NCBI GenBank assembly: GCA_021405315.1
Contig: QWIH01000015.1
Location: forward strand, 1 to 64,000
Reading direction: 5' to 3'
Source: Leptolyngbya sp. PLA1
GTDB taxonomy: Bacteria; Planctomycetota; Phycisphaerae; Phycisphaerales; UBA1924
Length of the DNA: 64,000 nucleotides
Below the pieces are notes generated by a model, which was not told the origin of the DNA, made no database searches, and saw only the letters and a list, made by a program, of their open reading frames with translations. Made by a program: the position numbers and the translations under genes. The number at the start of each line of letters is the position of its first letter. Position 1 is the first letter of the stretch. This document shows, in pieces, positions 23,615 through 51,186 of the stretch.

Positions 23615-24066
23615 ATCACGAGCACACAGAGCGTCTGTCCGCCGCCGCCCGTGCACGCATGGAGAGGGATCTCCCCGCGCTGCGAGCCCGCGTGACTCAC
23701 ACGCCCTCCCGGCGACTGTTCCGGCGAGCCGCCGGCGCGCTCGCGTGCCTCGTGCTGCTCCTCGTCGCGGCCCGCACGCTGCCCGCTCCGGGCGCCCCTC
23801 GTCCATCCGGCGCGACGATGACGCACCTGCCCCCCGATGGCGCCCACGATACCTCACCTGCGCACGGTGAGGTGACGCGGGGAGCCATCCGGACCGTCAT
23901 CGCCCCCGCGCCCCGCCAGACGCGGATGCTCGATGACGCGGAACTCCTCCGAACCCTCGCCGAGGCCGGTCGCGCCGACGGGATCATCCGCACCAAGGGA
24001 CGCACGCACCTGGCGAGCGAACTGACGCACGCGTACGCCGAGGTCACTTCCCCGCGGCTTCCATGA
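23611..24066 (+). CDS. Small single-pass membrane protein, possible anti-sigma partner
   Basis: A 151-residue protein. A basic N-terminal cytoplasmic stretch of about 40 residues (RLFRRAAG at its end) is followed by one membrane segment (ALACLVLLLVAARTL) and an extracytoplasmic tail. It has no HxxxCxxC zinc motif. Its start overlaps the sigma-factor stop as ATGA, the usual place for an anti-sigma factor, so that role is inferred from position only. It ends 23 bases inside the convergent thiol-oxidoreductase gene. Confidence 0.65.
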   Translation: MNHEHTERLSAAARARMERDLPALRARVTHTPSRRLFRRAAGALACLVLLLVAARTLPAPGAPRPSGATMTHLPPDGAHDTSPAHGEVTRGAIRTVIAPAPRQTRMLDDAELLRTLAEAGRADGIIRTKGRTHLASELTHAYAEVTSPRLP

Positions 24067-25861
24067 TCATCCGGCCCAGCAGGTTCTCGGCCTGGTACTT
24101 CCAGCGGGGCGCGTGCCTCCCGTTCACAAAGATCATCGGGATCGAGGTGATGCCCAGGGACTTCGCCGCGGTGGCGTCGGCCGCGACGTTCTCGCCTGTG
24201 AATGGCTGCGCGAGGGCCTCCATGAAGAGCTCCGGATCCAGCGACACTTCCGCCGCCGCCTGGCGGAGCACGGAGTCATCCAGCGGCATCGCCTGGTTGC
24301 GCATGAGCCAGTCGTGCATGCGCCAGAAGCCCTCCTGGCCGTCGACTCCGGCGGCCGCTTCCGCCGCGCGTGCCGCGAGGCACGCGCCGGGGTGCCTCGA
24401 AAGCGTGGTCGCGGGATTGCACGAGGCCTCCACCGGGAAGTGAACGAACTGATAGCGGATCGTCGGCTCCGGGCCGCTGGTGAAGACCCGCAGCAAGGCG
24501 TCCGCCTCGGCGCAGGTCTTCTCGCGGTAGTCGCCGATCAGCACGACCGTCACCGGCGCGTTCTCCCGTCCCAGGCCGTTGCGGAGCGCCCCCCGCGGGA
24601 ACGAAACCACGGGTGAGGTCCGCCAGTCGGCCATGTACCGGGCGATGGCGTCCGGCGGCGCGTCGGCGACGCTCGTCGCGGCGGGAGGCGAAGCCGCAAG
24701 AACAGCCCCTACCGCCCGGGTCACGGCATCCGGCGCGTTCCACCCCCTCAGTTCCACGCCATTGATGAAGATCATGGGTGTCTGGCTGATCCCCAGCGCG
24801 ACTCCCTCGCGCACATCGGCCTCCACGCCTCGGATGGCCTCCGGGCTCTCCATGAAGCGAGCAAACGTGCCGGGCTCGAACCCGAGCCCCGGCAGCGCGG
24901 CGCGGAGTTCGTTCTCGGTGAACGCGCCTCCACGATCAAACAGCCAGCGGTGCACCCGCCAGAAGCCATCCGTCCCCCCGAGTGCTCCCGCCGCTTCCGC
25001 GGCTCTGGCGGCCCAGCACGCGTTCGCGTGGAACTGCCCCGGCGCGTTCGGGTTGCAGTCCTCGTTCAGCGGGAACAGCTTCACCGAGATGCTCACGCGG
25101 GGATCCGTCGCCAGCGCCTCGAGCTGCGCATCGACCATTCGGCAGTCGGGGCACTGGTAGTCGGTGAAGAGAACGATCCTGGCCACGGCTTCCTTCGGGC
25201 CGCGCCGGTAGCGACCCTCGAATCCCGCGTCCGTTGCCGCCGGTGCGCGGGACGTGATCGCGGCGGTAGACTCCGCGAGGCGCCGCTCCGCGTCCGCTGT
25301 CGAGCGAGCCGCCGCCTGCCGATCCGCGATGAGCAGCCCCGCGAGCGAGACGAGACCCACAGCGAGCGCCACGCCTCCCTGCCGACCAAAGCCCCCCGAA
25401 GGCAGCGCCGCAAAGCCCCGGATCAGCAACGAGGCCATCACCAGGTTTGCGCCGTGGACCACCAGGCAATACACGCAGGGGTGCCCGATCTGGATCAGCC
25501 CGCCGAGCATCACCAGCGACCACGCCGCACCCATCAGGGCCACCCGGGCCAGCCAGCGTGACATGACGCCCCGACCCAGGATGCCCGAGGCAAGCAGTGC
25601 CAGGAAGTACGCGGCTCCGACGATCGACATGGGCCACCCCACGAGGGGGGCCTTGCCCAGCACGCTGCCGGCGGCGGCGTCGCACCCGCCACCCCGGCCA
25701 CAGCCGGGCAGCCCATCGGTGAGCAGGTGCCCAAGGGCCAGAGCCCACGAGGCGACGGTCGCGACCGTGAGGCACAGCAGTACCGCGGGTTGGGGTCGTT
25801 GGGCGGCGTCGCTACCCCTCGCGGGGGAGGCGGGCGGGGGCTTTCGGTGCTTCGGCTTCAT
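24044..25861 (-). CDS. VKOR - DsbA-like - DsbA-like fusion protein
   Basis: A 605-residue membrane protein joining a disulfide generator to its oxidase. The vitamin K epoxide reductase domain (about 25-175) has C54, C60 and the C129-V-Y-C132 active site in membrane helices, and would pass electrons to quinone. The first thioredoxin-fold domain (about 222-390) has C237-P-D-C240 and the cis-Pro loop TPMIFING. The second (about 425-600) keeps the fold and IPMIFVNG but has E447-K-T-C450 in place of CxxC, so it lacks the first cysteine. Both also share an extra cysteine pair (DCNPN...ACWAAR and SCNPA...ACLAAR). The ATG at 25861 is chosen; an upstream TTG is unlikely. Confidence 0.9.
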   Translation of the reverse strand: MKPKHRKPPPASPARGSDAAQRPQPAVLLCLTVATVASWALALGHLLTDGLPGCGRGGGCDAAAGSVLGKAPLVGWPMSIVGAAYFLALLASGILGRGVMSRWLARVALMGAAWSLVMLGGLIQIGHPCVYCLVVHGANLVMASLLIRGFAALPSGGFGRQGGVALAVGLVSLAGLLIADRQAAARSTADAERRLAESTAAITSRAPAATDAGFEGRYRRGPKEAVARIVLFTDYQCPDCRMVDAQLEALATDPRVSISVKLFPLNEDCNPNAPGQFHANACWAARAAEAAGALGGTDGFWRVHRWLFDRGGAFTENELRAALPGLGFEPGTFARFMESPEAIRGVEADVREGVALGISQTPMIFINGVELRGWNAPDAVTRAVGAVLAASPPAATSVADAPPDAIARYMADWRTSPVVSFPRGALRNGLGRENAPVTVVLIGDYREKTCAEADALLRVFTSGPEPTIRYQFVHFPVEASCNPATTLSRHPGACLAARAAEAAAGVDGQEGFWRMHDWLMRNQAMPLDDSVLRQAAAEVSLDPELFMEALAQPFTGENVAADATAAKSLGITSIPMIFVNGRHAPRWKYQAENLLGRMIMEAAGK

Positions 25862-26021
25862 GTAGCTTGGTCCGGGCAACGTCCGCGACCCGGGATTATT
25901 TCCGGACGAACGGCAAGCACGGGCTTCCGGTTCCGTTCTCTTCTGGGTAGATTACCACAGGCCGGGGCACAGGGGTCTGAGCCGGCTTGGTCTTTACTGG
26001 GACACACCCAGGAGGCATGGA

Positions 26022-28214
26022 ATGAATCTGAAGAGGTTGTGGTCTCGACTGTGCTGCGTTGCCGCCGTGAGCGTTGGCGCGCTCGCGTCGCCCGCGGACG
26101 CCCAGACGGGCGCGTGTTGCATCACCGCGAGCGGGACGGTCCAGTGCATCGTCTTGCCCCAGGCGGACTGCGCAGCCAGGGGCGGCACGTACCGCGGCGA
26201 CGGTACGGTCTGCGGCAATGAGATCTGCGCGCCACCCCGTGGGGCGTGCTGCCTGCGCACCGCCGCCGGCGGCGTCACCTGCGTTATCCTCACAGAGGCC
26301 CAGTGCGCCGCTCAGCAGGGCACCTACCGAGGCAACGCCACAACCTGCGGCAACGACACCTGCGCCTTCATGCTCCGCGGCGCCTGCTGCGTCCGCACCG
26401 CCACCGGCGGCACCGAGTGCATCGTCCTCACCCAGGCCCAGTGCGCCGAGCGACAGGGCACCTATCGCGGCAACGGCACGGTGTGCGGCTCCGACTCCTG
26501 CCCGACCCCTCCACCCACAGGCGCCTGCTGCGTCCGAAGCCCCGCGGGCACCCTCGTGTGCGTCGTGCTCACCGAGGCCCAGTGCGCCGCCCAGCAGGGC
26601 ACCTACCGCGGCAACGGCACGCCCTGCTCCAACACCACCTGCGCCCCGCCCCCGCCTCCCACGGGCGCCTGCTGCGTGCCCGTCGCCGGCACGCCCAACG
26701 GCACCGCCTGTCTCATCCTTTCCGAGGCCCAGTGCGCCGAGCGTCACGGTGTCTACCGCGGCAACGGCACGCCCTGCTCCAACACCACCTGCGCCCCGCC
26801 CCCGCCTCCCACCGGCGCCTGCTGCATCCCTCTCGCCACCACGCCCGGAGGCTCCACCTGCGTCATCCTGACGCAGGCCCAGTGCGCGGAGCGCCACGGC
26901 GTGTACCGCGGAAACGGCACCGCCTGCGGCAACGACACCTGCGCCCCGCCCCGCGGGGCCTGCTGTGTCCGCACCGACAAGGGCGTCGTCTGCATCGTCC
27001 TCACTCAGCCCCAGTGCGCGGAGCGCCAGGGCGTGTACCGCGGCAACGGCACATCCTGCACCGACCGCATCTGTGCCCTTGAAGAGCCCCGCGGCGCGTG
27101 CTGCGTTCGCACCGCCACCGGCAACGTCGAGTGCGTCGTCCTCACCGCCGCTCAGTGCGCCGAGCGCCAGGGCACCTACCGCGGGAACGGGACCGCCTGC
27201 TCCGCCACGCTCTGCCCGCAGCCCCCGCGCACCGGCGCCTGCTGCGTTCGCACGAGCACCGGCAACGTCGCCTGCGTCATCCTTACCGAGGCCCAGTGCG
27301 CCGAACGCCAGGGCGTGTACCGCGGCAATGGATCGGTCTGCGGCAACACGACCTGCCCGCAGCCCAGCCCGACCGGCGCCTGCTGCATCCGCACCGACAA
27401 GGGTGTCGAATGCGTTGTCGTCACCGCCGATCGCTGCCGTGAGCAGGGCGGCGTCTTCCGCGGTCCCGGCACCGCGTGCGGCGACCGCATCTGCGCCGTG
27501 CAGGACGTCACCGGCGCCTGCTGTGTCCGCACGAACACCGGCTCCGTCGAGTGCGTCGTGACTACGCCCGAGCGATGCCGCGCGGCGAACGGCGTCTTCC
27601 GCGGGCCGGATACGACCTGCGGCGACGCAACCTGCCGCGAGCCCGCCGCCTTCGGCGCCTGCTGCCTCCGTGCGCCCGCGGGCGTGGTCTGCGTCATGAC
27701 CACGCAGGAGCAGTGCGAGAAGCGAGATGGACTCTACCGGGGCGATGGCAGCCGCTGCGCCGAGGGGGTCTGCGAGCCCCGCGATGTCGGTGCCTGCTGC
27801 GTTCGCACCGACAAGGGTGTGGAATGCGTCATCACCACCACCGAGCGCTGCCGGGCCAATGCCGGCGTCTTCCGTGGTGAGGGCACCCGCTGCGGCGAGG
27901 ACACCTGCTCGCTCCCCGTCGGCGCCTGCTGTCTGCGGACCGACGACGGCGTCACCTGCGTCCAGGCCACCCGCGCCCGCTGCGCCGAGGCCAACGGCGT
28001 CTTCCGTGGCGACGGCACCGAGTGCGGCAAGGACACCTGCGAACGCCGAGCCTGCCCCTGCGACTGGGACCACGACGGCGGCCTCGACCGCGCCGATCTC
28101 GACGCCTTCCTCCGTGACTTCATCGAGGGCGACGCCGACTTCAACCACGACGGCGAGACCAACCTCGACGACCTCCACCAGTTCCTCGACTGCTTCACGG
28201 CGGGCTGTGGCTGA
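26022..28214 (+). CDS. Secreted protein with 14 Cys-rich GACC repeats and calcium-loop tail
   Basis: A 730-residue protein. A signal peptide (to about ADAQ) leads into 14 tandem repeats of about 45 residues with the pattern GACC-x(6-10)-C-x(7-8)-C-x(6-7)-YRGxGTxC-x(4)-C, six cysteines each, joined by short Pro-rich linkers. The sixth to ninth repeats are the most alike. The C-terminus (DWDHDGGLDRADLD and DFNHDGETNLDD) forms two calcium loops and ends FTAGCG. A strong AGGAGG site lies 8 bases before the ATG. Six cysteines per repeat suggest a disulfide-knotted extracellular rod. Two such repeats also occur in the multicopper oxidase at 30381-33248. The function is unknown. Confidence 0.88.
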   Translation: MNLKRLWSRLCCVAAVSVGALASPADAQTGACCITASGTVQCIVLPQADCAARGGTYRGDGTVCGNEICAPPRGACCLRTAAGGVTCVILTEAQCAAQQGTYRGNATTCGNDTCAFMLRGACCVRTATGGTECIVLTQAQCAERQGTYRGNGTVCGSDSCPTPPPTGACCVRSPAGTLVCVVLTEAQCAAQQGTYRGNGTPCSNTTCAPPPPPTGACCVPVAGTPNGTACLILSEAQCAERHGVYRGNGTPCSNTTCAPPPPPTGACCIPLATTPGGSTCVILTQAQCAERHGVYRGNGTACGNDTCAPPRGACCVRTDKGVVCIVLTQPQCAERQGVYRGNGTSCTDRICALEEPRGACCVRTATGNVECVVLTAAQCAERQGTYRGNGTACSATLCPQPPRTGACCVRTSTGNVACVILTEAQCAERQGVYRGNGSVCGNTTCPQPSPTGACCIRTDKGVECVVVTADRCREQGGVFRGPGTACGDRICAVQDVTGACCVRTNTGSVECVVTTPERCRAANGVFRGPDTTCGDATCREPAAFGACCLRAPAGVVCVMTTQEQCEKRDGLYRGDGSRCAEGVCEPRDVGACCVRTDKGVECVITTTERCRANAGVFRGEGTRCGEDTCSLPVGACCLRTDDGVTCVQATRARCAEANGVFRGDGTECGKDTCERRACPCDWDHDGGLDRADLDAFLRDFIEGDADFNHDGETNLDDLHQFLDCFTAGCG
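26603..26812 (+). repeat. 60-bp exact direct repeat inside the Cys-rich gene
   Basis: Bases 26603-26662 and 26753-26812 are identical, 150 bases apart, which is one protein repeat unit. Their flanks differ. This indicates recent duplication or gene conversion among the repeats. Confidence 0.9.
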
Positions 28215-29529: not shown

Positions 29530-30303
29530 CTACCGGGGCGTGTTCACCCAGCCCCATTCGTTCGCCGCGGAACTGCCCACCCCGTACTGGAGGTTCCGGG
29601 CGTGCAGGCGCAGGTGATTCGCGGTCAGGTCCGCTGCTTCCTCGATCCGGTCATTCCCGCCCTTGGGGAGCTTCAGGCCGTTGACCGATCCATCCAGAAA
29701 GGCGATGTTGCAGGACCTGGTGTGCCGCGCGGAGAACTGGTCCATGTTCGCGAACGAGCCGTCATCGACCTGGGTGTTGTACCAGCGTTCGTCTTCCTCG
29801 ATGAGGAGCGGGATGGACTGGAAGAAGACCCGCGGGGCGTTGGTGATGTTCGGGCTTTCGGGGTAGCTCATGTGCCAGGGTGCATCGACCTTGGCGCCCG
29901 CCAGGCGGATGATCATGGTGTAGTCGAACCACTGGTTCGGGCGCTTTCCCGTGGGGCAGATGAACGTGACATCGGTGGTCATGTAGTCCTTCAGGACCGA
30001 CGTCATGATCGGGTGCCGCCACAGCGTCGGGTTGCTCGTGTACCGCGTGTTGTTCCTCCCGCACCAGTCGAGATTCTGCGGCCCCTGCCAGTACGCCCCC
30101 GGAATGACCTTGTAGTCCGCGGCGTAGGTGAACATGGAGAGCCCGACCTGGCGGATGTTCGAGCGGCAGACCACGAAGCGTCCGGCCTCGCGAGCCTTGC
30201 CGAGCGCGGGAAGCAGGATGCCGATGAGCAGTGCGATGAGCGCGATGACCACCAGCAGTTCGATGAGAGTGAACCCGCGAATCCTCTGCCGGATGGTGTC
30301 CAT
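29530..30303 (-). CDS. Type IV pilin/pseudopilin-like protein with H-x9-DG motif
   Basis: A 257-residue protein. A short basic leader is followed by [44 protein letters not shown], the prepilin cleavage site and hydrophobic helix, and the C-terminal part has HTRSCNIAFLDG, an exact H-x9-DG motif. It is a paralogue of the gene at 2125-2928. The start at 30303 gives the usual leader length; an in-frame ATG 14 codons upstream sits on a TATGCT -10-like box, so it is probably not used. It lies 78 bases downstream of the multicopper oxidase gene on the same strand. Confidence 0.87.
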   Translation of the reverse strand: MDTIRQRIRGFTLIELLVVIALIALLIGILLPALGKAREAGRFVVCRSNIRQVGLSMFTYAADYKVIPGAYWQGPQNLDWCGRNNTRYTSNPTLWRHPIMTSVLKDYMTTDVTFICPTGKRPNQWFDYTMIIRLAGAKVDAPWHMSYPESPNITNAPRVFFQSIPLLIEEDERWYNTQVDDGSFANMDQFSARHTRSCNIAFLDGSVNGLKLPKGGNDRIEEAADLTANHLRLHARNLQYGVGSSAANEWGWVNTPR

Positions 30304-30380
30304 GGACGCTGACTCCGGGCGGGCGAACCGCTCCGAGATCAGCATACCACGGGCATCAAGCTTCCGGCCCGCACAAGTCC

Positions 30381-33248
30381 TCAGGGGCAGCCGCCGCCCG
30401 CGATGACATTCACGAGGGCCGCGACGTCGTCCTGGTCGACGTTCCCGTCGCGGTTGAAGTCCGGGTCGCGGTTGTTGGGGTTGGCTCCGCCCGCGATGGC
30501 GTTCACGAGGTACGTGACGTCGTCCTGGTCGGTGTTCCCGTCGTCGTTGAAGTCCGGGTCGCAGGTTGGGAAGACGGTGAGCGTGGCGGTGCGGCTGGAG
30601 AGGGGGCCGCAGGCGTCTCTGACGATGCAGCGGTAGCCCCCGGCGTCCTCGGGGCGGAGGCTGGTGATGCGCAGGTTGAAGGTCGTGGCACCGGAGATCG
30701 TCGAGCCGTGGGGCGTGACGCCGTTCGTGAGGACCTGTGTGCCCTTCCGCCACTCGTAGGTGAGAGTTCCGGCGCCGGTGGCGTCGGCGAAGAAGCTGGC
30801 GGTCCCGTTGTAGGGTTTGACGGTGTCGCGGGGCTGCCCGATGATGTCGACCCAGCACGTGACGCGGAACTGACGCATCATCTCGTGATCCTCGTGTTCG
30901 AGGATGTGGCAGTGGTAGGGGTAGGTCCCCCCGAAGCCGTCGAACCGCGCGATGACGCGGGTGATCTGGAAGGGCATGGCTCGCACCGTGTCCTTCCAGC
31001 CGGCCTCCTCGGGCGGGGGTGGCGTGCGCGGGCCCACGGGCGTCACCACACCGTTGACGATGGTGCAGTCCTGCGTGTCCAGCACCTGGAACTGCACGAG
31101 GTGGATGTGCATGGGGTGAACGACGCCCGAGTTGTTGACGAACGACCAGATCTCCACGTCTCCGTAGCGGGGGAACTCGGTGATGTCGTCCCACATCAGC
31201 CCGTTGATCGTCCACATGAAGCCCATGCACGGGTGGTTCATGCGCTCCAGCATGAAGGTCCGCGTGCGGGCCGCGGAGGCCTCCGGGATCGGCGTGATGG
31301 TCCGCAGCGTGGGGGGCAGCGGGCCCGTGGAGCCCTCGGCCTCCAGCACCACGAACTTCATCACGTTGGGGATGACTCCCACGCCGGGCGTGCCCGGGAA
31401 GGGCGCGGGCGCCGAGTTCATCAGGAGCACTTCCGTCCCGGGCTCGAGCGGGCCGAAGTCGATGACCATGTCCGCACGCTCGCCCGGAGAGATCGTGACC
31501 GAGGTGACCTCAACCGGAGCGGCGAGCAGTCCACCCTCGGTGCCGATGCGCCACATGGGCTGGCCGTTGGAGAGCGCCAGCGTCAGCGTGCGCGAGTTGC
31601 AGCCGTTGAGCATCCGGAAGCGGTACTTGCCCCGCCTGACTTCCATGAATGGCCAGACCTTGCCGTTGACGAGCATGGTGTCGCCGAAGTAGTGGTCCTC
31701 GCCCTGGCCCATGGAGGGGTAGCGGAGGCTTCCGTCCGCCGCGAACGACCGGTCCTGGATCGCGAGGGGCACCTCGTACGAGCCGCTGGGGAGGCCCAGC
31801 GCCTGCTCCTGGGCATCGCGGATGAGGTAGAAGCCCGCGAGCCCCATGTAGACGTTGAGCCGGGTGGTCCCGAGGGCGTGGTCGTGGTACCAGATGGTCG
31901 CCGGGTCCTGGTTGTTCGGGTAGACATACACCGGCGAGCTCTGGCCGGGGAGCTGGGTGAGCTCGGGCTGGCCGTCGGAGATGGAATCGACCCGTCCGCC
32001 GTGGATGTGCGTCACGGTGGCGGGCGCTGTGCCACGCTCCGCCGGGCCGTGCATGCAGGTTTCCACGTCCAGATCGTGGTCGGTGAGGTAGTTGCCCTGG
32101 TCGTCGCGGAGCTCGTTGCGGTAGGTGACATTGACGGGAAGCCCCCGCGTGGCCTCGATGGTGGGCCCGGGGTACTGGCCGTAGTAGCCATAGACGACGG
32201 TGGGGGGCAGGTCGCGGTGGAGCTGCTGGCGGACCCGCAGGATGGGCACGTCGTACGTGGCCGCTCCTCCGGGCTGGCCCTGGATGGGCTGCGCCACGCC
32301 CGGCAGGGGCAGCGCATCGACGAACGGCGTGAGCGAGACGGGGCACAATCCGGCGGTGCACGTCGTGCCGTTACCCTTGTAGACGCCCCCCTGATTGGTG
32401 CAGTCCGCCTGAGTCTGGACGGAGCATGACCCGTCGGGAAGGCAGCAGGCGCCGACCGCGCCGACGCACGTGTTCTGGCCGCAGGGCACGCCCGTGCCCT
32501 GGTACGTCCCTCCCGCGGCGGCGCACGCGGAGGGGGACAGAACCTGGCAGCTCGTATCGGGCAGACAGCACGCGCCCGACGCGGCGCCGGGTGTGAAGGT
32601 GATGATCAGCTGCGGGATCGCCGAGCCGGACTCCCGGGAGTTGAACCGCTTGGCCGTATGTGGCTGGGTCTCGTCGCCCCTCAGGATCCAGCCGAAGTTC
32701 GTGGCCGGGGCGTCGATCCATCCCTGCACGTCGGTGACGAGCGTGGCGGACGTCCACGTGTAGGTCGCGATGCCGCCCACGCTGATGGTGGCGCTGGGTG
32801 TCGCCACGAAGTCGCCCCCGGCGGTCGTCCAGGGGAAGAGCGGGTGGAGACGGTGTGTCCATGTCGCGTCGTTGGTGGTGGCCACGGCGCCGCCGCCCTC
32901 GCCGCCCTGGGCGTTGGACGTGCCCTCGCCCCACATGCCGAGCGCGCGGTGCAGGCTCACGGGCGTGGCGGGGGCTGTTGTCCGCGACATGTACAGCTTG
33001 ACCTGCACCGCCGTGATGACAGACCCGGCGGGAATGGCCGACGTGTCGAACCGCACCAAGCCCCGCCTGATGGTGCCGAGGTCGTTGGTCCCGGCGAAGA
33101 CGCCGTCTCCGACGCCGTTGGAGATACCGCCGGTGGCGTTCTGCCACATGGTGTTATCGGACACAGCGTTGAGGGTGAGGATGTCCGCCGACGCAGAGCT
33201 CGCGAGCAGCCCGATCGCCGCGACAAGAACAGTGAGACGTATGGACAT
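30381..33248 (-). CDS. Chimeric secreted multicopper oxidase
   Basis: A 955-residue exported protein. Order: signal peptide (1-21); a DNRLRE-type beta-sandwich (about 22-220); two six-cysteine GACC repeats (225-302); a three-cupredoxin laccase/CotA-like oxidase (about 305-800); an Ig-like domain (about 805-893); and two calcium loops ending GGGCP (897-955). All copper ligands are present: type 2/3 H414, H416, H455, H457, H714, H716, H779 and H781, and type 1 H711, C780, H785 and M790. It should oxidise phenols, metals or bilirubin-like substrates with reduction of O2 to water; the substrate is unknown. AAGGA precedes the ATG at 33248. A promoter lies at 33400-33427, back to back with that of mqnC. 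Confidence 0.93.
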   Translation of the reverse strand: MSIRLTVLVAAIGLLASSASADILTLNAVSDNTMWQNATGGISNGVGDGVFAGTNDLGTIRRGLVRFDTSAIPAGSVITAVQVKLYMSRTTAPATPVSLHRALGMWGEGTSNAQGGEGGGAVATTNDATWTHRLHPLFPWTTAGGDFVATPSATISVGGIATYTWTSATLVTDVQGWIDAPATNFGWILRGDETQPHTAKRFNSRESGSAIPQLIITFTPGAASGACCLPDTSCQVLSPSACAAAGGTYQGTGVPCGQNTCVGAVGACCLPDGSCSVQTQADCTNQGGVYKGNGTTCTAGLCPVSLTPFVDALPLPGVAQPIQGQPGGAATYDVPILRVRQQLHRDLPPTVVYGYYGQYPGPTIEATRGLPVNVTYRNELRDDQGNYLTDHDLDVETCMHGPAERGTAPATVTHIHGGRVDSISDGQPELTQLPGQSSPVYVYPNNQDPATIWYHDHALGTTRLNVYMGLAGFYLIRDAQEQALGLPSGSYEVPLAIQDRSFAADGSLRYPSMGQGEDHYFGDTMLVNGKVWPFMEVRRGKYRFRMLNGCNSRTLTLALSNGQPMWRIGTEGGLLAAPVEVTSVTISPGERADMVIDFGPLEPGTEVLLMNSAPAPFPGTPGVGVIPNVMKFVVLEAEGSTGPLPPTLRTITPIPEASAARTRTFMLERMNHPCMGFMWTINGLMWDDITEFPRYGDVEIWSFVNNSGVVHPMHIHLVQFQVLDTQDCTIVNGVVTPVGPRTPPPPEEAGWKDTVRAMPFQITRVIARFDGFGGTYPYHCHILEHEDHEMMRQFRVTCWVDIIGQPRDTVKPYNGTASFFADATGAGTLTYEWRKGTQVLTNGVTPHGSTISGATTFNLRITSLRPEDAGGYRCIVRDACGPLSSRTATLTVFPTCDPDFNDDGNTDQDDVTYLVNAIAGGANPNNRDPDFNRDGNVDQDDVAALVNVIAGGGCP

Positions 33249-33399
33249 GCCGTATCCTTCGAATGTCGCGCGCTCTGAGACGCCACGAGCCCGCAAAAAC
33301 TACCGAGCCATCAGTCTTTCGCATGCGAGCATCGGCAGTTACGCTGTCCGAGTCCTGCCCGAGCTGGCCGCGATCTTCCGAGGGTATTTCGGACTAAAT

Positions 33400-45476: not shown

Positions 45477-45526
45477 GGGGTCGACCCACTGGTAGGTGAG
45501 TGTTCGGAATCCTGACACGTACCGAC

Positions 45527-45555
45527 TTGTGTTCGACCCGGAATTCGGTCACAAT
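45527..45555 (+). promoter_or_regulatory. Promoter of the giant subtilase gene
   Basis: TTGTGT (45527-45532) and CACAAT (45550-45555) are 17 bases apart. The leader of about 150 bases contains a hairpin, CCCCTG-CACACA-CAGGGG (45677-45694), 18 bases before the ATG. Confidence 0.5.
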
Positions 45556-45711
45556 AGGATCAGGGAGCAAGGGGGCCCGTATGGCATGACGCCAACGGGC
45601 GCCGCGGCTTATGGTGGGACCACAGGTTCCGCCTCACAGGCTGCACCCGCCGGACTCCTACTTGGGATTGCACACGCCCCTGCACACACAGGGGCTGTCT
45701 TGGAGTGTCGT

Positions 45712-48700
45712 ATGTTCAATCGTCGAACGGGTGGCATCGGCTTCGGATTCGGCCTCGACGCGCCTCAGGTCATGGAAGCGCTCGAGCAGCGTCAGTTGCT
45801 CGCCGCCGATCTTCCGTCGGGAGTTCGACTGCTGGACTGGGATGGGGACCGCGTCGCGGCCATCGAGAACTCGTACATCATCTCGTTCGATGGTCAGCAG
45901 AGCGCGCAGGATGCGCTGGCGACGGCCCGGGCGGTCGCGGCGCGGCTGGGCATCCAGGCGACGGACTTCCAGTCCGTGGCCCGGGGCCAGTACGCGACGT
46001 TCACGACGACGGACGCGGTGTCGGGCGTGCTCGCCCGGCGGCTGGCGGAATCGATGCCGTTCGTGCGCACGATCGAGCCCAACCGCGCCTACCAGACGAT
46101 GGCGGTCCCGAACGACCCGCAGTTCTCGAACCAGTGGTGGCTCCGGAATACCGGTCAACCCACGACCGTGAGCCCGGCGGGCACGCCCGGCGCGGACATC
46201 AAGACCGTGCAGGCGTGGGACATCTCCATCGGCACGCGGGACAACGTGGTGGCGGTCATCGACACGGGCATCGACCTCCAGCACCCGGACCTCATCCAGA
46301 ATCTCTGGACGAATCCCGGCGAGATCGCGGGCAACGGTGTCGACGATGACGGCAACGGCTTCATCGACGACGTGCACGGGTTTGACTTCGGCGACAACGA
46401 CTCCGACCCCGACGACATGGACACGGGCGGGCACGGCACGCCCGTCGCGGGCATGATCGGCGCCGTCGGCAACAACGACCTGGGCGTCTCGGGCGTCAAC
46501 TGGAACGTCTCGCTGATGGCGCTGAAGATCGCCGACCGGTTCGGCGCGCTCTCGACCGCCGCCATCGTCGCGGCGCACGACTACGCCACGATGATGATCG
46601 GGCGGGGCATCAACATCGTCGTGAGCAACAACAGCTACGGCGGGTTCAATCAGGAGTTCTACGCGGACGCGCCCGAGGGGTTCTCCGCCGAGCGTGACGC
46701 CATCCAGCGATTTGTGGACACGGGGGCGTCGTTCGTGGCCTCCGCGGGCAACAGCTCGTTCGACAACGACAACCCGAACTTCACGTTCTTCCCGACGTCG
46801 TACAACATCGCGGGCGTCATCTCGGTCGCGGCGACGGACTACAACGACCAGCTCGCGGGCTTCTCCAACTGGGGCGTGCGCACCGTGGACGTCGCGGCCC
46901 CGGGCGTGGGGACGTATACCACTGCGAACGGGGGCGGGTACAGCTCCTTCGGCGGCACCAGCGCCGCGGGCCCCGCGGTGGCCGGCGCGGTGGCGCTGCT
47001 CAAGGCGGTCAAGCCCAACGCGACCGCCGTGGAGATTCGCGAGGCCATCGTGAACGGCGCCGACCCGCTGCCCTCGCTGCAGGGCAAGGTCCGCTCGGGC
47101 GGGCGTCTGAACGTCTTCCGTTCGATGCAGCTCATCCAGATCGACGGCCCCGTGGTGCAGTCCATCAACCCCGGCCCGATCGCCCAGCAGTTCGTCCCGG
47201 GCACGAACACGCCCCTGAGCACCGTCACGGTCAACTTCAGCGAGGTGATCGATCCCTCGGCGCTCACGACCAGCGCCGTCACGCTGCTCGGCGCCGGCAA
47301 CGACAACACCTTCGGCACCTCCGACGACTTCAGCGTCCCCATCGCCTCCATCACCCGCAGCAACACGGACACGACGCTGGTCGACATCGGGCTCAACCTC
47401 TCGGGCTTCTCGCCCCAGCGACTCCCGCTCAGCAACTACCGGCTCACCCTTGCCCCCGCCGGCTTCAAGGACCTGCAGGGCAACTTCCTCAACGGCAACA
47501 ACGTGGGCGGCTCCAACCACGTGTACAACTTCCGCATCGCCGCGGCCACCGGCGACAACGAGCCCAACGACCAGCTCGTCGAGGCCACCACGCTCGCCTT
47601 TGACGCGAGCAGCACGGCCCGTGTGACGGGCGTGACGCTCGGCAACGGCCTGTTCGGGCCTCTGGACGTGGACCTCTACAAGGTCGTGATGCCGCGGGGC
47701 GGGCAGATCACCGCCGAACTCACGGCCCAGCGGCTGCCCGCGGGCTCCACGCTCGACGGCTTCCTCCGCCTCTTCGACGCCAACGGCGTGCAGCTCAACG
47801 AGAACGATCAGTTCTTCGGCAACGACCCGTTCATGGACTTCTTCGTCCAGACCGCCGGCACGTACTACGTGGGCGTCTCCGGCTTCGGGAACGATGCCTA
47901 CGTGCCCACCATCCCGGGCAGCGGGACGACGCAGTCACTGGGCATCTACAACCTCACGGTCGGCGTCCGGCTCTCCACAGACGACACCGTGACGAGCGTG
48001 GGCTTCAACCCCACCGTTCCGCCGCCCTCCGGGACGAACGTCTTCACCACCTTCGACGCGCCCGCCGGGCCCACCACCAACATCCCGCCCAACGCGCCCT
48101 CCGACACCCGGGGCGTCACCACCGCCTTCATCGACATCGACGACTCCCGCCAGATCCTCGACGTGAACGTCCGCCTTCGCCTGGCGCACTCGTTCGTCGG
48201 CGACCTCATCATCAGCCTCATCGCCCCCAACGGCCGCGAGATCTTCCTCTCCAACCGCCGGGGCGGCGCGGGCACGAACTTCACCAACACCATCTTCGAC
48301 GACGAGGCCACGACTTCGATCACGACGGCGTCGCCGCCCTTCACCGGCGTGTTCCGGCCGGAGAGCACGACGCCCGCCTCGCAGCCCAACGCGCTGGGCC
48401 TGCTCGATGGCATCCCGGGCGCGGGCCGCTGGACGCTGAAGATCGAGGACACCACGTCGCTCAACACCGGGCAGCTCCTCAACTGGGCCCTGGACGTCAC
48501 CTACAGCAACGACATCTTCGGCCCCTTCGAATCCAACGACACCCTGGTCACCGCCAAGGCCATGACCGAGATCAACGGCGCCGGCACCGCGACCCGCAAC
48601 GCCTTCCTGGGTGACGGCGGCTTCGGCGGTCTGGACCGCGACATCTTCTCCTTCTACGCCGAGACGGGCTCGACCCTCACCGCGACCCTGACGCCCACGG

Positions 48701-51186
48701 GCGCCTTCAACTCAGCCATCCGCGTCTTCGACTCGCAGGGAACCCAGATCCTCATCTCCAACCCCCTGGACCGCAACTCCGCGCAGATCGACGGCTTTGT
48801 CTTCAACAACGGCGGCACGTACTACATCGCCGTCTCCGAAACTTCCAACGTCGCGTACAACCCCACGGTCGTCGCCTCCGGGACTCCGGCCGCCAGCACG
48901 GGCGACTACACCCTTGTTGTCAATGTCGCGGCGGGTGTCTCCGATCCCAGCCAGGTGTTCACCGGTTCGGCACTGTCGATGGGCATCAGCACGCTGGGCA
49001 ACATGGGAGGCTCGGCGGGCACCCCGGGCATCCGCTACAACGGCATCGAGTTCCTGCCCAACCTGGGCCAGACGTTCTTCGGCGCGGTGGGAGGGGGCCT
49101 GGGCTTCTCCAACGCAGCCGCGAGCCAGAACTCCCTCGCGTTCTCGCTCACCAACCAGAGCGACCCCTCGAACTTCCGCCTCACCACCCGCGCCCAGCAG
49201 GGCAACGGCCTCCGCATCGAGCGATCGATCTCCTTCGGCCGCAACGACTCGTTCTTCGTCATCGACGTCACGCTCACCAACGCCTCTTCCGGCGGGCTGA
49301 CGGACGTGAGCTGGATGGAAGGCTTCAACCCCAACCCGGGCATTTCGCTGGGCGACAACCGCGCGAACACGGTCAACGACGTCGCGTCCGGTCAGCCCTT
49401 CGGCACCGCGGTCTACACGAACAACCAGTTCACCCAGGGCCTGACCGTCGGCCTGGGCGCACCGACCACCGACACCCGCGCGGGCGTGACCTTCGCGAGC
49501 GGCGCCGTGCCCCGCGACCCCGGCGTGCTCATCGGTCAGGGCGCCATCGACCCCAACGGCACGTCCGGTGACTTCCAGATGGTCATCACCTTCGACCTCG
49601 GAGGCCTCTCCGCGGGCGCCTCCACGTCGATGCGGTACTTCGTCTACTTCGGCACCACGCCCACGCAGGTGCAGAACCTGCACGACGCGATGAACGCCGG
49701 CACCGGCACCGGGCACCTCGCCGCCCGGTCCGACCAGCCCGCGACCGAGACTCTCTCCGAGGGTTCCACGGTTCCCGTGCTCCCGTACCGCGTCTTCTTC
49801 CCCGAGGGCGCGACGGGCGACAACATCTTCACCTTCGTCCCGATCAGCAACCCCAACAACACGCCCGTCCGCGTCGTCGCCATCGCCCGGTATGAAGTCG
49901 GCGAGCGGGACCAGGTCGTGGGCGACGTGGTCATCCCCGCGCAGTCCCGCGGCGGGTTCACGCTCATCGACCCCGTCCTCAAGGCCAACAACCAGACGCT
50001 GGTCCGGCTCCCGACCGCGGAGAACCCCTTCGTTCAGTACGCCCTCGAACTCCGCTCCGACCTGCCGGTCGCGGCGACGTTCAGCCACTACGACCTCAAC
50101 CTCGTCAGCGGCGCGAACAACTTCAAGGCCGCCGTGGGCGAGGCCTTCACGAGCGTCACCAGCAACACCTGGTCCTTCGCGCAGGTCGAGAAGGGCAACG
50201 GCAACGTCAACTTCATGGTGTGGCTGAACACCACCGGCGCCAACTCCAAGGTTGACGTCTTCTTCTACCCGCAGTCGGGTGGGCAGGCCTACCAGACCAC
50301 CATGACGCTCGGCGCCTTCCGTCGCGGCGGCATCTCCGTCAACGACGCGGTCGTCCAGCGCCTCGGCCAGCCCGCCGATCCGTTCATCAACCTCCCCGAC
50401 GGGAACTACGGCGTGGTGCTCTCCAGCCCCGTCGCCATCGTCGCCTCACTCTCGCACTACAACGGCGGCGAGGGTGTCGCCGAGGGGGCCATCGGAAACG
50501 TCGGTGCGGGCTCGACCACCGGCGTCATCCCCGAGGGCCAGATCGGCCTCAACGGCACCTCCGAGTCCATCGCCATCCTCAACACCGGCGGCTCCGCCGC
50601 CACCGTCACCATCTCCTTCCTCTTCGACAACGGCTCCGCGTACCGCGCGGTCCGCACCGTGACGGGCGGCTCGAGCAGCACGATCGTCGTCGAGGACCTC
50701 CCCAACTTCACGGGCGGCCGGCCGTACTCGGTCTTCTACGAGTCCACAGCCTCCGTCATCGTCTCGGCCCGCTCCAACGCGTTTAGCGGTCAGCTCGCCA
50801 CCTCTACGGCGGACGCCGCGTACTCCTGGTGGGGCTTCGGCGAGGGCTTCCGCCCCGGCGACACCGACACCAACCACCCCGGTGTGGTCGAGAATCTGCG
50901 CCTCTACAACCCGGCGTCGACCGCCACGACCGTGGAGATCACCATCGCGTACGACGGCATCGCGGGCACGGAAGTCTTCCGCCGCACGCTCTCGGCACGG
51001 ACGGTCAGCGAGTTCAACGTGCACGACTTCGTGACGGGCGCCCGCCGCACCAACAACCAGTGGTACTCGATCACGGTGAAGGCGCCCACGCCGATCGTCG
51101 CGTACATGGCCCACTACGACCGCGCGTTCCAGGGCGCGTTCGGCACGCTGGGCACGCCCCTGGGCCGCATCTCCGCGGTCTCCTGA
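45712..51186 (+). CDS. Giant secreted subtilisin-like serine protease (S8), multi-domain
   Basis: An 1824-residue protein. The N-terminus ends in MEALEQRQLLAADLP, a form of the planctomycete LEPR/LLA export motif. A propeptide-like region (about 35-130) precedes the S8 domain with D184 (VIDTGID), H241 (GGHGTPVAGM) and S417 (GGTSAAGPAVAG). Then come an Ig-like segment, a PPC domain (EPNDQLVEATTL), a proprotein-convertase P domain (about 780-940), a second PPC domain, and a C-terminal region of about 800 residues with three similar beta-domains that end in PVAATFSHYD, PVAIVASLSHYN and PIVAYMAHYD. The ATG at 45712 follows GGAG and gives the export motif its usual place. A terminator follows. Confidence 0.92.
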   Translation: MFNRRTGGIGFGFGLDAPQVMEALEQRQLLAADLPSGVRLLDWDGDRVAAIENSYIISFDGQQSAQDALATARAVAARLGIQATDFQSVARGQYATFTTTDAVSGVLARRLAESMPFVRTIEPNRAYQTMAVPNDPQFSNQWWLRNTGQPTTVSPAGTPGADIKTVQAWDISIGTRDNVVAVIDTGIDLQHPDLIQNLWTNPGEIAGNGVDDDGNGFIDDVHGFDFGDNDSDPDDMDTGGHGTPVAGMIGAVGNNDLGVSGVNWNVSLMALKIADRFGALSTAAIVAAHDYATMMIGRGINIVVSNNSYGGFNQEFYADAPEGFSAERDAIQRFVDTGASFVASAGNSSFDNDNPNFTFFPTSYNIAGVISVAATDYNDQLAGFSNWGVRTVDVAAPGVGTYTTANGGGYSSFGGTSAAGPAVAGAVALLKAVKPNATAVEIREAIVNGADPLPSLQGKVRSGGRLNVFRSMQLIQIDGPVVQSINPGPIAQQFVPGTNTPLSTVTVNFSEVIDPSALTTSAVTLLGAGNDNTFGTSDDFSVPIASITRSNTDTTLVDIGLNLSGFSPQRLPLSNYRLTLAPAGFKDLQGNFLNGNNVGGSNHVYNFRIAAATGDNEPNDQLVEATTLAFDASSTARVTGVTLGNGLFGPLDVDLYKVVMPRGGQITAELTAQRLPAGSTLDGFLRLFDANGVQLNENDQFFGNDPFMDFFVQTAGTYYVGVSGFGNDAYVPTIPGSGTTQSLGIYNLTVGVRLSTDDTVTSVGFNPTVPPPSGTNVFTTFDAPAGPTTNIPPNAPSDTRGVTTAFIDIDDSRQILDVNVRLRLAHSFVGDLIISLIAPNGREIFLSNRRGGAGTNFTNTIFDDEATTSITTASPPFTGVFRPESTTPASQPNALGLLDGIPGAGRWTLKIEDTTSLNTGQLLNWALDVTYSNDIFGPFESNDTLVTAKAMTEINGAGTATRNAFLGDGGFGGLDRDIFSFYAETGSTLTATLTPTGAFNSAIRVFDSQGTQILISNPLDRNSAQIDGFVFNNGGTYYIAVSETSNVAYNPTVVASGTPAASTGDYTLVVNVAAGVSDPSQVFTGSALSMGISTLGNMGGSAGTPGIRYNGIEFLPNLGQTFFGAVGGGLGFSNAAASQNSLAFSLTNQSDPSNFRLTTRAQQGNGLRIERSISFGRNDSFFVIDVTLTNASSGGLTDVSWMEGFNPNPGISLGDNRANTVNDVASGQPFGTAVYTNNQFTQGLTVGLGAPTTDTRAGVTFASGAVPRDPGVLIGQGAIDPNGTSGDFQMVITFDLGGLSAGASTSMRYFVYFGTTPTQVQNLHDAMNAGTGTGHLAARSDQPATETLSEGSTVPVLPYRVFFPEGATGDNIFTFVPISNPNNTPVRVVAIARYEVGERDQVVGDVVIPAQSRGGFTLIDPVLKANNQTLVRLPTAENPFVQYALELRSDLPVAATFSHYDLNLVSGANNFKAAVGEAFTSVTSNTWSFAQVEKGNGNVNFMVWLNTTGANSKVDVFFYPQSGGQAYQTTMTLGAFRRGGISVNDAVVQRLGQPADPFINLPDGNYGVVLSSPVAIVASLSHYNGGEGVAEGAIGNVGAGSTTGVIPEGQIGLNGTSESIAILNTGGSAATVTISFLFDNGSAYRAVRTVTGGSSSTIVVEDLPNFTGGRPYSVFYESTASVIVSARSNAFSGQLATSTADAAYSWWGFGEGFRPGDTDTNHPGVVENLRLYNPASTATTVEITIAYDGIAGTEVFRRTLSARTVSEFNVHDFVTGARRTNNQWYSITVKAPTPIVAYMAHYDRAFQGAFGTLGTPLGRISAVS

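Follow-up and report, generated by a model that had tools for sequence, protein, structure and literature searches.

A secreted array of fourteen six-cysteine GACC units beside a VKOR-DsbA fusion gene in a planctomycete, and the probable kinship of its unit with the iRhom homology domain

Within the 64,000-nucleotide stretch of planctomycete DNA analysed here (the window), the plus-strand gene at 26022-28214 encodes a 730-aa protein composed of a signal peptide, 14 six-cysteine units that we call GACC units (26109-28043) and a C-terminal dockerin-like domain (28053-28211) with two DxNxDG-type loops. The units, delineated by a profile search of the own genome, start at positions 26109, 26241, 26379, 26520, 26664, 26814, 26955, 27093, 27234, 27375, 27513, 27654, 27789 and 27921 and are 41-44 aa long each, plus linkers; every one of them carries six cysteines in the arrangement CC-x(8,9 or 11)-C-x7-C-x13-C-x4-C. 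The per-unit E-values in this search, 1e-12 to 1e-21, exclude a chance origin of the repeat, and TRF independently detects the tandem array. The tandem six-cysteine repeats of the original prediction were therefore confirmed, as was its figure of about 84 cysteines, of which we counted exactly 84 in the units and 90 in the whole protein; its extracellular placement agrees with the secretion signal read from the sequence (MNLKRLWSRLCCVAAVSVGALASPADAQ). A Pfam search of the array ORF matched zero domains, and the tail scores 24.2 bits against the GC-type dockerin model NF041540, under the curated 29-bit cut-off, so that it does not qualify as a member. Homologous array and partner proteins are also recognised by this model, and two of these exceed the cut-off (29.6 and 34.6 bits). 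An antisense ORF of 760 aa (25896-28178, minus strand) that fully overlaps the array was rejected, being probably a product of GC-rich codon use.

Head-to-head with the array gene, across a gap of 160 bases, lies a minus-strand gene (24044-25861) for a 605-aa VKOR-DsbA-pseudoDsbA fusion that scores above the cut-offs of PF07884 and PF01323. Downstream, also on the minus strand, a secreted multicopper oxidase (30381-33251) combines a DNRLRE/CBM96 domain, two GACC units, copper-oxidase domains, an Ig domain and a dockerin-like tail. Profile search placed the two units at 32463-32576 and 32340-32453 (both minus strand), between the DNRLRE and copper-oxidase domains, which verifies the earlier claim that the unit recurs twice in this enzyme. 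Beyond these two proteins, the own genome holds one single-unit protein (contig C82). A scan of named genomes recovered units mainly from Planctomycetota (Phycisphaerae and others) and some from bins of Eisenbacteria, Zixibacteria and Bipolaricaulota; units were also seen in two Proteobacteria-named bins (L121, a Limnohabitans MAG13 contig, and L148, a Proteobacteria MAG), both on small contigs that are possibly mis-binned planctomycete DNA. At another locus (L051, 8441-13809, genome G035), two cysteine-rich proteins with 165 and 88 cysteines are encoded directly downstream of an array; only part of their cysteines fall in recognisable GACC units, and they are perhaps diverged relatives of the unit. 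Two further observations concern the surroundings of the array. A DUF1559 / N-methyl pilin-like gene (29530-30318, minus strand) is found near the array also in genomes G004, G005 and G006 (70-92% identical), even though the array is otherwise flanked by different genes in G004 and G006. At 45496-51186 (plus strand), the window encodes an 1896-aa subtilase in which a proprotein-convertase P domain, PPC domains and ASRT (Anabaena sensory rhodopsin transducer) domains occur in an unusual combination.

The array had been described as undergoing homogenisation, on the strength of 60 identical bases at a 150-base offset. The identity itself is real: positions 26603-26662 equal 26753-26812 (plus strand), and this is the sole exact self-match of at least 25 bases within the array ORF. 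The two copies span the second half of units 4 and 5, respectively, together with the linker, each beginning within the YRGxGT core and extending through the proline linker. In the closest available relative (G005), which has the neighbourhood in common with the window (VKOR-DsbA neighbour 82% identical, rpsG 98%, rpsL 99%), the ortholog has six units, which match window units 1-5 and 14 by position and show 77-90% DNA identity to their positional partners. The 60-base identity belongs to the window alone; G005 reaches no more than 41/60. Compared with G005, the array has thus undergone one recent conversion or partial-duplication event over a single tract, plus a net change of eight units, and no wholesale homogenisation. 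Because units 1-5 and 14 still correspond by position in G005, the array appears to change mainly by gain and loss of units with one local tract added, and of the proposed homogenisation only that recent tract stands. Across genera, the nearest relative of a unit lies in the same array for 40-68% of units in most arrays, against about 9% expected, which indicates that over larger distances units turn over through duplication and loss.

The six cysteines are conserved. Among units from the loci collected, 806 of 818 fully aligned ones keep all six cysteines, and the ten that lack Cys1 also lack Cys4 (10/10), in at least two unlike contexts. This joint loss points to a Cys1-Cys4 disulfide within the GACC unit, the number of independent events being small since most of the co-losses fall inside one protein family; natural cysteine losses in the 818 aligned units gave no resolvable pairing other than this one. 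Structure prediction for a single unit, proposed alongside the original prediction, yielded a confident fold of a beta-hairpin and a short helix: AlphaFold2, supplied with alignments of window and locus units, returned a pLDDT of 92 for a single unit (the second multicopper oxidase unit, 32340-32453) and of 94 for three units. The three-unit model has a pTM of just 0.57 and the linkers are proline-rich, so that of the "rod" first envisaged no more than extended, proline-linked beads is supported.

No family assignment emerged for the unit in the domain collections. Searches with the array protein and 91 diverse units gave no reproducible Pfam match, and the unit matched neither a Pfam nor an NCBIfam entry, though the collection ran to hundreds of distinct copies. 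Searching the PDB with single sequences from the array gave no match for the unit, two phmmer matches of the array to PfEMP1 (E 0.28 and 1) were rejected as chance, and a search of open-licence papers found no description of GACC repeats. The density of cysteines, and the presence of two units in a copper enzyme, could suggest that the thiols bind metal or stay free, as in metallothionein. We regard this as highly improbable, given that a metallothionein model matched just 1 of the 91 units (E 0.09), that Cys1 and Cys4 are lost as a pair, and that the units co-occur with a disulfide oxidase.

A relative did appear among solved structures. Searched against 177,635 distinct PDB sequences, the unit profile matched only iRhom1 and iRhom2 chains up to E 10 (best E 6.4e-6), and two further unit profiles recovered the same four sequences and nothing else; the structures concerned are PDB 8snl, 9o58, 9q7y and 9xy4 (iRhom1/RHBDF1 and iRhom2/RHBDF2). 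Two stretches of the iRhom homology domain (IRHD) match the profile. The C-terminal one is complete (8snl_B 571-606), and the C-terminal module of iRhom1/2 follows the six-cysteine pattern CC-x5/6-C-x7-C-x13-C-x4-C from first to last cysteine, with CC-x6-C-x7-C-x13-C-x4-C in 8snl_B; the first stretch is matched over about 25 residues, and its structural alignment crosses an insertion (9xy4_A 500-593). The view that the domain had no known function needs amending: it belongs to no Pfam family, but among solved structures it has detectable relatives in one place only, the luminal modules of the metazoan pseudoproteases iRhom1/2.

Fold comparison led to the same place. Foldseek, run with the single-unit model against 350,542 PDB chains, gave two matches up to E 10, iRhom1 (9xy4_A) and iRhom2 (8snl_B), with TM-scores of 0.57 and 0.59 on the unit and an rmsd of 1.0 over 25-26 columns, their E-values of 2.1 and 3.7 being individually weak for a 38-residue unit. 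None of the Foldseek matches to the three-unit model was significant; the rows heading that list, among them complement C6/C7 modules and NAMPT, had an rmsd of 8-25 A and were discarded. VIA-align of the three-unit model placed the iRhoms first (Z 3.8, 3.5 and 3.4; next row 2.3), on the same residues as the sequence match. The single unit was aligned by the same program over its full length with 8snl_B 569-607 (Z 3.4, rmsd 2.1) and, across the insertion, with 9xy4_A 500-593 (Z 2.3); all these Z values for iRhoms lie below 4, a low absolute score that is expected for 38 residues and that does not by itself reach significance. The VIA row for leech tryptase inhibitor (Z 2.3 at 6% identity) ranks below the iRhom rows and was dismissed. 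Judging from hhalign, units and iRhom align with a probability of 74 and an E-value of 2.8e-5, the iRhom side comprising only two sequences.

Given the small size of the unit, these likenesses might have arisen by convergence, a short beta-hairpin and helix with six cysteines being easily reinvented and implying no shared descent. The unit has merely 38-44 residues, the structural scores are weak one by one, the YRGxGT core is not retained in iRhom (its second glycine is absent from the iRhom modules), and metazoan and bacterial hosts are far apart. Cysteine spacing by itself does not account for the match, however. When residues of the iRhom fragments were shuffled with cysteines fixed, the real score was reached in 0-6 of 3000 trials, and when the other profile columns were shuffled in the same manner it was reached in 0 of 200 for any of four fragments; the similarity between unit and iRhom exceeds cysteine spacing. 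The unit profile also matches a second place in the same iRhom domain. Further weight comes from the agreement of methods, because sequence-profile and fold searches, which differ in kind, each name this single family in the whole PDB and the same residues in it. We therefore consider convergence rather doubtful, and the GACC unit is likely to be homologous to the IRHD modules. The array protein itself is not filed as an iRhom protein, because its architecture is signal peptide, repeats and tail, and not a domain between TM1 and TM2 of a rhomboid pseudoprotease.

For the IRHD, neither the PDB nor the AlphaFold human proteome had yielded a similar structure (PMC11248996), and it has been termed a fold unique to iRhoms (PMC10148629); our search of open-licence papers found no bacterial IRHD relative. 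Within the searchable data, the GACC unit would thus be the first relative of the IRHD modules. The IRHD is required for the ADAM17-dependent release of TNF and EGF ligands, and a free-standing bacterial relative, after published searches had found none, would be short and expressible enough to serve as a model of the fold and disulfides of this domain, and would give a lead on where the domain came from.

We turn to the enzyme encoded opposite the array. Its VKOR domain scores 29.6 bits against PF07884 (cut-off 27.5), and in the alignment the four catalytic cysteines (C54, C60, C129 and C132) are invariant in all 43 orthologs. The first DsbA domain reaches the profile score of PF01323 and has its CxxC (C237/C240) in 43/43, while the second DsbA-like domain (residues about 430-600) lacks a catalytic CxxC in 43/43 and keeps C481 and C494 in all. 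By its sequence, this second domain is a conserved pseudo-DsbA, or pseudo-thioredoxin, inside a VKOR fusion. The fusion is the sole VKOR and the sole DsbA detected in the window genome. DsbB was not detected in any of the 163 family genomes, the control search being positive in known genomes, and VKOR was observed to be nearly confined to the fusion gene in this set; taken together, these two facts imply that genomes without GACC units seem to lack a recognised quinone-linked disulfide oxidase. A planctomycete VKOR triple fusion was not found in the open-licence literature.

The fusion follows the units. Across the 163 family genomes it is present in 0/48 without units, 4/53 with 1-3, 14/33 with 4-7, 5/7 with 8-15 and 20/22 with at least 16 (Fisher 4e-14 at ≥8 units; 8e-7 by genus). 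Of the two exceptions with at least 16 units, one (G031) carries a fragment of VKOR where a contig ends and the other (G063) is an 82% complete draft; a third genome, G016, has 12 units and no fusion in a good assembly. In a phylum sample of 392 genomes, the fusion occurs in seven, all with units (7/7), and in 0/371 of those without (p 4e-10). The original prediction that the array would need a strong oxidative folding system is accordingly well served, by an oxidase gene that adjoins the array and co-occurs with units phylum-wide. A GACC gene stands directly divergent from the fusion in 22 of 43 genomes (window counted) belonging to 12 genera, and never convergent; one further fusion gene has a GACC gene 3.4 kb away. 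The divergent partner takes one of two forms, a long array or a shorter chain (about 540 aa) in which GACC units, usually four, lie between an N-terminal domain and a dockerin-like tail; a genome outside the class (G503) shows the same divergent pair of array and fusion. Chance and general synteny are inadequate explanations, because the pairing is fixed with two unlike partners that share only the GACC unit.

Could the enzyme instead serve a cysteine-rich secretome at large, its link to GACC proteins being a by-product of genome size or lifestyle? A few genomes do carry the fusion with only 2-3 units, and about half of the fusion genes do not adjoin a GACC gene. Such a general role is nevertheless unlikely, as the fusion never occurs without units in the family and phylum samples, its frequency climbs with unit number, and two unlike GACC proteins are paired with it in one fixed orientation, in 12 genera as well as beyond the class. 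We conclude that GACC proteins are probably clients of the fusion enzyme, and its main ones, because the enzyme is kept essentially only in genomes that have them. An oxidase present only alongside one class of repeat module would be a natural single-client oxidative folding system, in which substrate choice becomes testable.

These results can be assembled into a model in which the array protein would be exported unfolded, whereupon the membrane enzyme encoded opposite it would oxidise the beads. VKOR would pass electrons from cysteine pairs to quinone, and the fused DsbA (YQCPDC) would insert disulfides into the beads, each of which is predicted to comprise a beta-hairpin, a short helix and three disulfides including Cys1-Cys4. 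The second DsbA-like domain, which is catalytically dead, may hold the substrate; as a conserved non-catalytic domain it is an obvious candidate for substrate binding, and by analogy with non-catalytic PDI domains we give this role an even chance. The resulting chain of 14 stapled beads would be displayed outside the cell, with the dockerin-like domain as its C-terminal anchor. In planctomycetes, the GACC module may be a spacer that separates a functional head from an anchor at the C-terminus, a role that suits it because beads lie between head and tail in other proteins such as the multicopper oxidase; the headless array would then, somewhat more probably than otherwise, be a stalk or coat.

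Cysteine-rich proteinaceous walls have been proposed for planctomycetes, and the array could be a covalently cross-linked protein of such a wall or coat, with disulfides mainly between molecules. Its cysteine content, secretion signal, repeat architecture without a catalytic head and variable copy number between relatives are all in keeping with this. On the other hand, six invariant cysteines per compact unit and a confident single-unit fold suit pairing within units, the unit occurs 1-4 times in other secreted proteins (for example, the multicopper oxidase), and the published model of the related iRhom domain shows every one of its 16 cysteines in a pair (PMC10148629). We thus find intermolecular cross-linking improbable and favour, with reasonable though not strong confidence, a secreted, anchored chain of GACC beads that is folded by a dedicated, divergently encoded oxidase and whose bead is probably a homolog of the iRhom module. 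Whether both lines can be joined is evenly poised: the IRHD may be two diverged copies of a bacterial disulfide module abundant in planctomycetes, received by ancient transfer or from a deep common ancestor, with a quinone-linked VKOR-DsbA-pseudoDsbA enzyme kept essentially only for folding proteins of this module.

Compared with known systems, the differences are as telling as the likenesses. The IRHD is part of a rhomboid pseudoprotease, in which it lies between two membrane helices; it contains 16 cysteines, one loop that is hypervariable and another for ER export, and it grips ADAM17. The GACC units differ in being free, secreted, tandem bacterial beads. With planctomycete proteins anchored by GC-type dockerins (NF041540), the homologous GACC proteins have the C-terminal dockerin-like tail in common, but the array protein differs in scoring below the bits required. 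VKOR-thioredoxin/DsbA fusions of cyanobacteria, plants and other bacteria share the four-cysteine VKOR core and a C-terminal thioredoxin-fold oxidase; the planctomycete enzyme adds the second DsbA-like domain, which has lost its CxxC and kept two other cysteines, and differs further in being tied to one class of client genes. A dedicated disulfide system beside its client is also found in uropathogenic E. coli, where DsbL/DsbI accompanies arylsulfate sulfotransferase. The likeness lies in a disulfide catalyst encoded beside its preferred substrate, whereas the planctomycete system is a single fused chain, apparently the only such oxidase of its genome, and its putative clients are a family of repeat-module proteins.
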